Origin: Spirosoma oryzae
Lineage (GTDB): Bacteria > Bacteroidota > Bacteroidia > Cytophagales > Spirosomataceae
Direction: 5' to 3'
DNA length: 64,000 nucleotides
Assembly: GCF_003002825.1 (NCBI RefSeq)
Contig: NZ_PVTE01000012.1
Span: forward strand, 1 to 64,000
Shown: positions 33,883 to 34,816 of the stretch, piece after piece
How positions within the stretch are numbered: position 1 is the first letter of the stretch
Layout: each line of letters opens with the position of its first letter
Notes under the pieces: model-generated
The model's database searches: none
What the model saw: only the letters and a program-made list of their open reading frames with translations
Told to the model about the DNA's origin: nothing
Translations under genes and position numbers: made by a program

Positions 33883-34368
33883 CTACGACGCCAAACCAGC
33901 GATTTCAGCATCTGTCGACTCATTCCGTACCAGCACAGATTCGGTTGTCTGACTCAGTATATGCCATGCCTCTCTATAAACAGCTGATCGGGGCTTACGC
34001 TGCCGTTTGTCCGATTCTACCAAATGGATTTCCGAGCCATACGCGATAAAGTCCTGCACAGGTATGACGTAGAAAACATGCAGGGAATCAACATAAACAA
34101 CGGCAAAGTCGAAGTCGGTCAGTTGATACACTGCGCGTACCATCACGCGTCGATTCGTCTTTGTACGCCGGGTATCGACGACAAAATTTCCCCGCTTCTC
34201 ATCGAACCAGGCACTCTTGACCTGAATACGTACCAACTGTCCGGCAATATCGAAAACAAGGTCATAAGGTAATCGGTCACCTATTGGTTTGCATACCCCC
34301 CAGCCGAGTTTGAGCGCCTTAAGAATCACGGCCTGCTCGGCAATATCCCCTTTCTGTTTTGTCAACAT
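33883..34368 (-). CDS. PD-(D/E)XK homing endonuclease-like protein (I-Ssp6803I family), outside the intron
   Basis: A 161-aa protein of the family Pfam calls group I intron-associated PD-(D/E)XK endonuclease. The core is readable: a helix KGDIAEQAVILKALKLG (E11), then PIGDRLPYDLVFD with D36, and VRIQVKSAW with Q49 and K51, giving D-x12-Q-x-K. The known member is I-Ssp6803I, encoded inside the group I intron of cyanobacterial tRNA-fMet. Here the gene lies 70 bp downstream of an intron-split tRNA-fMet, on the same strand, after a terminator, and not in the intron. It looks intact from ATG 34368. Not all family members are proven endonucleases. Confidence 0.85.
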   Translation of the reverse strand: MLTKQKGDIAEQAVILKALKLGWGVCKPIGDRLPYDLVFDIAGQLVRIQVKSAWFDEKRGNFVVDTRRTKTNRRVMVRAVYQLTDFDFAVVYVDSLHVFYVIPVQDFIAYGSEIHLVESDKRQRKPRSAVYREAWHILSQTTESVLVRNESTDAEIAGLAS

Positions 34369-34404
34369 GTGATGTGGATTGTCGCTAGATAAGCTGTAAA
34401 ACGA

Positions 34405-34433
34405 AAAACCCCACTGAATTTCAGTGGGGTTTT
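34405..34433. terminator. Terminator between tRNA-fMet and the endonuclease gene
   Basis: AAAACCCCACTGA (34405-34417) and TCAGTGGGGTTTT (34421-34433) form a perfect 13-bp stem with a 3-base loop. On the minus strand the stem runs into TTTTT, so it should end tRNA transcripts 6 bases past the tRNA and separate them from the endonuclease gene. The symmetry would also serve the plus strand. Confidence 0.85.
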
Positions 34434-34438
34434 CTTAG

Positions 34439-34816
34439 TAGCGGGAGCTGGACTCGAACCAGCGACCTTTGGGTTATGCTTACTACTACAGTTTTCACTG
34501 CCTCTGCCTTCGCAGCGTTTGTAGTCTGGACTGTCTCTTCACCCTCGTCTAACTTCGTTAGGGTGCCCACCATTCAGTCTCTACACCTTCCAAAAGTTTC
34601 CTTTTGGCTTGGCTCGGGATTACCGCACTACCGGCTTCCCCGAATTTGGCAGGTTAACATACTGGTGTTTCCCCCAGTACCGCCCATGAATTACAAAACT
34701 TGGATTTTCATCCATCACACGACAACGTGCTTATCGTGCGATCAGGTCTTGCAATTACCGTTATCATTTTACTGATAACCTTAAGCCCAACGAGCTACCA
34801 ACTGCTCCATCCCGCG
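34439..34816 (-). tRNA. Initiator tRNA-fMet (CAU), interrupted by a group I intron
   Basis: Exons 34784-34816 (33 nt) and 34439-34478 (40 nt) join to a 73-nt cloverleaf. Acceptor: CGCGGGA against UCCCGCU, with a mismatched C1-U72; D stem GAGC/GCUC with A11-U24; anticodon stem UUGGG/CCCAA with three G-C pairs at 29-31/39-41; loop CUCAUAA, anticodon CAU; T stem GCUGG/CCAGC. The unpaired 1-72 and three G-C pairs are initiator hallmarks, so this is fMet, not elongator Met or Ile2. A73 is at 34439 and CCA is not encoded. The intron falls between U33 and C34. Confidence 0.95.
34479..34783 (-). ncRNA. Group I intron (IC3-like) in tRNA-fMet
   Basis: A 305-nt insert between U33 and C34; the 5' exon ends in U and the intron ends in G, as group I splicing needs. 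The core is close to the Anabaena tRNA-Leu intron as I recall it: AAUCCCGAGCCAAGCC (34607-34622), GGAAGGUGUAGAGACU (34576-34591, the guanosine-binding R segment), the P8 hairpin with CACCCUAAC and GACGAGGGUG (34540-34565) and AAGAGACAGUCC (34528-34539, the S segment, closing P7). Further hairpins occur near the 5' end (GUUAUC/GAUAAC) and around 34700-34745. P1 is not clearly resolved by eye. No ORF lies inside. It should self-splice. Confidence 0.93.

Follow-up and report, generated by a model that had tools for sequence, protein, structure and literature searches.

A group I intron in the initiator tRNA gene of Spirosoma oryzae and an adjoining nuclease gene: a probable collaborative-homing pair on a bacterial chromosome

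Introduction

How does a bacterium start protein synthesis if the only initiator tRNA gene found in its genome is interrupted, and what keeps the interruption there? The question is raised by a locus in Spirosoma oryzae that lies within the 64,000-nt stretch of contig NZ_PVTE01000012.1 analysed here (the window). An initial annotation had read the locus as a tRNA-fMet(CAU) gene split by a group I intron in a Bacteroidota-like genome. It had overlooked a free-standing nuclease gene beside the tRNA gene, and once this gene is considered, the intron no longer reads as passive but probably as half of a mobile element made up of two genes.

Group I introns in tRNA-fMet genes are reported for Synechocystis and Gloeobacter in PMC8450103, which also reports 36 bacterial genomes that appear to lack tRNA-fMet or tRNA-Ile2 through group I introns; ORF-bearing fMet introns are cited for Dermocarpa and Scytonema in PMC5733544. 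The intron of Synechocystis PCC 6803 is described as 655 nt long with a 150-codon ORF (PMC1995217, PMC3073962, PMC8450103), with a table placing this nuclease ORF in P1 (PMC3073962), and another listing I-Ssp6803I as the PD-(D/E)XK enzyme of the intron (PMC1995217). In collaborative homing, as excerpts of PMC6083498 and PMC3984707 present it, a free-standing nuclease gene adjoins an intron-containing gene: F-CphI lies beside intron-containing psbA in cyanophage S-PM2, and the intron stops self-cleavage. The examples given there are from phages, and the review PMC3984707 contains no word beginning Bacteroid- or Cytophag-.

Results

Anatomy of the interrupted gene

The gene lies on the minus strand at positions 34439 to 34816, as initially annotated, and comprises a 73-nt tRNA-fMet(CAU) with an intron between U33 and C34. 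The features of the locus, in window coordinates, are the following:

34784..34816, minus strand: tRNA-fMet 5' exon, tRNA positions 1 to 33 (33 nt, ending in G31 C32 U33); from the sequence and ARAGORN on the joined exons
34479..34783, minus strand: group I intron, 305 nt; matches RF00028 and is precisely absent in the sister genome G025
34439..34478, minus strand: tRNA-fMet 3' exon, from the anticodon C34 A U to position 73 (40 nt); from ARAGORN on the joined exons and comparison with G025 and intronless genes
34783..34786, minus strand: P1 5' strand, exon G31 C32 U33 and the first intron base; at the 5' splice site, U33 pairs as U.G in all 14 family introns
34682..34685, minus strand: internal guide sequence GGGC; pairs with G31 C32 U33 Y1, invariant in 14 of 14
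34648..34653, minus strand: P3 5' strand; covaries with 34566-34571
34566..34571, minus strand: P3 3' strand; covaries with 34648-34653
34575..34579, minus strand: P7 5' strand, guanosine-binding helix; pairs with 34529-34533 in 14 of 14, invariant
34529..34533, minus strand: P7 3' strand; pairs with 34575-34579, RF00028 alignment
34404..34429, minus strand: terminator-like palindrome CCCCACTGAAATTCAGTGGGG, followed by T5, between tRNA and nuclease genes; read in the sequence
33883..34368, minus strand: predicted free-standing homing endonuclease, 161 aa, PDDEXK_5; 2OST homologue with E11, D36, Q49 and K51 present

The proposed check on the cloverleaf gave a clear answer: ARAGORN calls the joined exons a tRNA-Met(cat) of 73 bases. 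The marks of an initiator that the initial annotation had recognized can be read in the joined sequence, i.e., a C1 opposite U72 mismatch, a GGG/CCC anticodon stem, A11-U24, the cloverleaf and CAU. From GGAGCAG onward, no base distinguishes the spliced gene from any of the 29 intronless Spirosoma fMet genes compared. Unspliced, the gene is missed by ARAGORN without introns and miscalled as Leu(taa) when an intron is allowed; plain ARAGORN reports no tRNA at all in the 64-kb window.

The group I assignment and the 305-nt length at the U33/C34 site were likewise upheld by the exon/intron boundaries and by a covariance search, in which RF00028 matches at 34698-34509 on the minus strand over the full model (1-253 of 253) with 59 bits, above the curated gathering cut-off of 50 (E 2.1e-12). 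This is the only Rfam match at gathering in the 64-kb window. The ORF list holds no sense-strand ORF of ≥90 aa in the intron. An antisense open frame of 99 aa runs through the intron (34476-34775, plus strand) and shows no sign of being a gene.

Intron structure and guide sequence

The unspliced RNA folds far better than dinucleotide shuffles (z −5.4, 0/100 as good), the predicted fold itself not being the group I fold. The structure was modelled on the 14 aligned fMet introns of the family, with P1, P2, a P3/P7 pseudoknot, P4-P6, P8 and a 3' hairpin. Across these 14 introns, 97.9% of 663 cells in the proposed P1-P9 structure pair, and both sides have changed in 18 of 48 pairs. The covariation score was reached by 0/500 shuffles, one of five measures, further pair types, showing no excess over shuffles (332/500); sliding the 3' partners by 1-3 columns lowered pairing to 32-46%. 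P3 is paired in 100% of cells, with double changes, P7 in 100% without variation, and P8 in 90%. P4, P5, P6 and P7 never vary and so contribute no covariation evidence; P4-P6, P8 and the P3/P7 pseudoknot pair across the 14 introns, in agreement with the P4-P8 core initially recognized. The covariance match, the fold z-score and the covariation relative to shuffles place the intron well beyond chance, and we regard the locus as confirmed to be a group I intron in an initiator tRNA gene.

Group I introns use a U.G pair at the 5' splice site. In all 14 family introns, U33 is so paired and the terminal intron base is G, as the initial annotation had expected at both sites. The GGGC guide begins at intron base 99, the first intron base is C or U, and the stretch between the two P1 strands is a P1 extension, the region that holds the nuclease ORF in the fMet intron of Synechocystis (PMC3073962). 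The first G of GGGC and the preceding U could form P10 with C34 A35. A candidate guide within the first ten intron bases (GGU) was rejected because it is not conserved, whereas GGGC is.

The initiator tRNA gene in genome and genus

The genome (6.57 Mb in 75 contigs, 100% complete) yielded 41 RF00005 matches, 150 of 186 first-look candidates having been scored. No intact fMet gene is present among the 30 RF00005 loci examined, two of which carry CAU, neither with initiator marks. The remaining 11 matches have the lowest scores: ten measure 82-87 nt, and the last, of 71 nt, falls within a stretch where ARAGORN calls Cys. A pattern for uninterrupted fMet genes, allowing ≤3 mismatches, is absent in this genome and present in 199 of 222 family genomes. 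Within the genus, 29 of 36 genomes have an intact fMet gene, and the other seven are exactly the seven in which it is interrupted. Thus, the count of fMet genes that had been proposed revealed no intact second copy, and the suggestion that this is the only one holds for the assembly as searched.

Ten family genomes had neither an intact (by pattern) nor an interrupted fMet gene (G056, G059, G070, G092, G142, G162, G184, G190, G203 and G204); seven of them are <90% complete, the exceptions being G092, G203 and G204. In G074, which we counted as interrupted, the intact pattern also finds a match, with three mismatches, that we took to be another tRNA.

The neighbouring nuclease gene

The nuclease ORF begins 70 nt downstream of the tRNA gene, outside the intron. 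Its product matches PDB entry 2OST ("putative endonuclease") over residues 3-140 (E 1.4e-62) and PF11645 (E 1.7e-49), and 1931 protein clusters match it at 1e-20. We take 2OST to be I-Ssp6803I, and E11, D36, Q49 and K51 to be the catalytic positions. These four residues are kept in 38/38 intact copies compared, the window copy included. The dN/dS ratio is 0.03-0.15 in 10 of 13 pairs, some with dS >1, and the other three are saturated; the nuclease is under purifying selection. Compared with I-Ssp6803I-type (PDDEXK_5) enzymes, the protein shares the homology and the catalytic positions and is not encoded within the intron; because 70 nt separate its ORF from the tRNA gene, we describe it as a free-standing relative.

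Hairpins similar to the terminator-like palindrome occur at the same place in other family loci; the palindrome with its T5 was not flagged by a terminator scan. A scan for promoters of the sigma-70 type found none near the nuclease gene. The NCBI protein name of several Spirosoma relatives of the nuclease, "group I intron-associated PD-(D/E)XK endonuclease", shows that the association of nuclease and intron was already known to annotators.

Empty sites and linkage of intron and nuclease

The close relative G025 (Era 99.7% identical, same neighbours, 82% complete assembly) lacks exactly the 305-nt intron and, separately, ∼540 nt with the nuclease gene beyond the terminator, the far edge of this second gap being ill-defined. 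The locus thus has two hallmarks of collaborative homing, i.e., a free-standing nuclease gene beside an intron-bearing target gene and a related genome, albeit 82% complete, with neither insertion. No co-conversion tract is visible around the site between G000 and G025. All 29 intronless genomes of the genus carry the same 66-nt fMet stretch over the site, and therefore none shows a resistant target. A comparison of G010 with its sister G027 yielded no further clean empty site for the nuclease: the intact fMet gene of G027 is followed by DNA wholly unlike that in G010, as would result from the entry of an island at the tRNA.

The fMet intron is present in 14 of 222 family genomes, Spirosoma relatives among them; 14 is a lower bound because the family RF00028 search used strict filters. 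Of 54 loci given to the exon finder, 14 produced no result. By these searches, 12 of the 222 genomes have intron and nuclease, two (G012 and G147) the intron only, one a nuclease pseudogene only and 207 neither. The nuclease therefore occurs in 13 genomes, 12 of which have the fMet intron, and no intact nuclease occurs without the intron in the 222. In 11 of the 12 genomes with both, the nuclease (to the alignment start) is 66-83 nt downstream of the tRNA, the copy in G156 being broken in two. In G076, the nuclease is intact and no longer adjoins the tRNA gene; a short copy of the fMet 3' end and its terminator region precede it, as though a portion of the locus had been duplicated to another place. 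The fMet gene of G083 is uninterrupted, and the nuclease gene that follows it contains an in-frame stop. In a sample of 395 genomes from the phylum, the nuclease was found in two, namely this genome and G502, each of which has the fMet intron.

Intron and nuclease are strongly associated over the 222 genomes by a Fisher test that ignores kinship (5e-17), and their linkage is confounded by kinship: there are three independent pairs on well-supported branches and five on the best tree, and the nuclease follows the intron in 2.9 of 3 pairs on average and is never opposed (median p 0.25). On an era tree of the genus (35 of 36 genomes; G024, with no era on its contig, was left out), the intron state changes five times most parsimoniously, at least three changes being forced by well-supported branches. 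Because era adjoins the site, this tree could share the history of the site; intron and era trees agree in their resolved parts within Spirosoma.

fMet introns beyond the family

A pattern search of genome contigs (fMet 3' half, with G for U33) gave at least 114 stretches, and 80 loci were examined. Among the matches listed, a corresponding fMet 5' half accompanies 71 of the 80, and their insertions, 193-695 nt long, share the site of the window intron; the nine without a 5' half comprise three with <300 bases upstream, one G33 variant and five others. Again among the matches listed, 15 of the 71 introns, 624-695 nt long, contain an intact homologous nuclease ORF, an arrangement seen in other phyla; introns of 514 and 406 nt contain a broken copy and a remnant, respectively, and two short introns small remnants. 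The nuclease lies outside the intron in 14 of the 71 listed, in 13 about 64-101 nt downstream on the same strand (broken in L108), and for 38 of these 71 interrupted genes there is none in the stored stretch. At L131, on a contig labelled Omnitrophota, the nuclease is upstream on the opposite strand, in an open frame far longer than the domain. In 50 genomes chosen from the 71, many of them MAGs and two (L140 and L141) family members already counted, an exact pattern compatible with every one of the 50 spliced genes found no intact fMet gene (0/50). GGGC occurs ≤75 nt upstream of the core anchor in 63 of 70 introns at other loci, as compared to 0.32 by shuffling; six of the seven misses have no core anchor.

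The intron tree holds 77 fMet introns with at least 16 phylum labels, which for single MAG contigs may reflect mis-binning; duplicates (L140, L141 and L157), an intron of a different kind (L102) and introns with no core anchor (L085, L091, L107, L126 and L147) were left out. Among the matches listed, introns cluster by phylum, with 18 changes where 15 is the least possible for 16 labels, and most transmission therefore looks to be within phyla. In this quick tree, the Spirosoma group lies closer to Nostocales and Moorena introns than to introns from three genera of its family (g3, g12 and g13); we lean on the tree little because it is quick and has 211 columns. In an unrooted tree of 39 nucleases (38 intact copies and 2OST; the broken G083, G156, L108 and L085 and the duplicates L140 and L157 were left out), the state inside or outside the intron changes seven times (6-8 over bootstraps), at least five changes being forced by well-supported branches.

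Candidate vehicles were sought and rejected. Viral contigs gave no fMet-intron pattern match and no encoded relative, searches at 1e-8 found the nuclease in no plasmid record, and four phage records match only part of it (43-61% of its length, 36-41% identity); blastn matches to plasmids and phages cover 9-31% of the query.

Some other loci deviate from the common form. Four Acidobacteria-titled loci (L099, L123, L125 and L137) have fMet 3' halves after group I-like sequence with no 5' half found upstream. The two of them searched with RF00028 gave 51 bits (L099) and no match at gathering (L123). All four are possibly split, truncated or integration-remnant tRNA genes. In L102, the gene is complete; its intron is 238 nt long (57 bits) and has a 3' end similar to that at the four loci. 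L159, from a Lachnospiraceae MAG, is an uninterrupted fMet-like gene with G for U at position 33.

Discussion

We propose that the locus is a chromosomal collaborative-homing pair, i.e., a two-part mobile element in an essential gene, a reading to which we assign a probability of about 0.78 from comparative sequence evidence. In this model, the group I ribozyme would splice itself out of the sole initiator tRNA gene found, so that protein synthesis can start. A guanosine would attack after U33, held in P1 by the GGGC guide, and U33 would then attack after the last intron G. By analogy with its intron-encoded homologue, the nuclease would cleave fMet genes that have no intron, at the place where the intron inserts. 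When the break is repaired from the intron allele, the intron would be copied, and with it the nuclease gene if the conversion tract extends that far. The intron would split the target and in that way protect the host from its own nuclease.

Three other explanations deserve weighing. The interrupted gene might be a degraded copy, with an intact fMet gene in an unassembled part of the genome. The assembly of 75 contigs leaves room for this; however, G012 (one contig), G031 (two contigs) and G010 (nine contigs) also have only the interrupted gene, and a spliced gene that equals 29 intact ones from GGAGCAG onward is hardly that of a decaying copy, so that we consider this idea scarcely credible. 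A better case exists for an ordinary, vertically kept intron whose neighbouring nuclease is left over from a time when the intron encoded it and no longer drives anything: intron and era trees agree where resolved within Spirosoma, introns cluster by phylum (18 changes against a minimum of 15), and the nucleases of G083 and G156 are broken. By contrast, purifying selection on the nuclease and its conserved catalytic positions, together with at least three and most parsimoniously five changes in intron presence within one genus, speak against a mere relic, which is improbable in our judgement.

The third explanation concerns what holds the pair together. Because the fMet gene is chromosomal, essential and single-copy, addiction becomes possible: the two parts would persist together mainly since intron loss in the presence of active nuclease is lethal, and not by present-day spread. 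Under this reading, the intron would be impossible to lose because an active nuclease would cut the only initiator tRNA gene. The distribution fits, as neither the 222 family genomes nor the 395 of the phylum sample (with two nuclease carriers) include one with an intact nuclease and no intron, and in G083, the one carrier that has no intron, the nuclease is broken by an in-frame stop. Plain collaborative homing predicts the same pattern, however, and in G012 and G147 the intron persists with no nuclease. We therefore hold addiction as the main force to be rather unlikely, and prefer collaborative homing as the account of the pair.

The system most similar to this locus is that of I-Ssp6803I in Synechocystis PCC 6803, with the same host tRNA, a group I intron and a homologous nuclease. 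In Synechocystis, the nuclease is inside the intron, whereas in Spirosoma an ORF-less intron is accompanied by a nuclease standing alone 70 nt downstream. In this arrangement, the locus resembles F-CphI and psbA, where a free-standing nuclease also adjoins an intron-bearing gene; the S-PM2 case, however, involves a phage protein gene and another nuclease family, as opposed to a chromosomal single-copy initiator tRNA gene and a PD-(D/E)XK enzyme. Bacterial Leu(UAA), CAU (Ile2-like) and Arg tRNA introns are similar in being group I introns of the anticodon loop, but they interrupt other tRNAs at other loop positions and mostly lie apart on the quick intron tree (15 of 26 used). Such introns also occur in the same family, at loop positions other than that in fMet:

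Arg (anticodon read UCU): L041, L045, L067, L081, L082
Leu(UAA): L061, L066, L069-L072, L075, L078, L079, L083
CAU: L048-L051, L054, L055, L057, L058, L060, L063, L064

A literature search over titles and abstract openings found neither an fMet intron described in Bacteroidota nor a free-standing nuclease of the I-Ssp6803I family beside an fMet intron. The Bacteroidota host is borne out, and the initial remark, which knew of no described fMet case in this phylum, stands within that search; the insertion itself is not unique, as 14 of 222 family genomes have it. We rate the intron as belonging to a known kind of fMet introns and the split chromosomal arrangement of intron and nuclease as a novel variation on it.

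A broader and more tentative view, to which we give somewhat less than even odds, is that of an ancient selfish system at the initiator tRNA anticodon that crosses phyla. Intron and nuclease would repeatedly join and separate, with the nuclease in P1 or beside the gene, and together they would form an addiction element of bacterial chromosomes in which the intron serves as antidote.

Because gene finders can miss an interrupted fMet gene, annotated genomes can wrongly seem to be without an initiator tRNA. The family also offers natural intermediates, i.e., an intron alone, an intron with a free-standing nuclease, an intron with the nuclease inside and a dead nuclease without an intron, which bear on the open question of how mobile introns are assembled and disassembled. 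Cultured Spirosoma carry the element, making it accessible to experimental tests. Since nothing replaces the initiator tRNA, these cells would depend on a ribozyme for translation.
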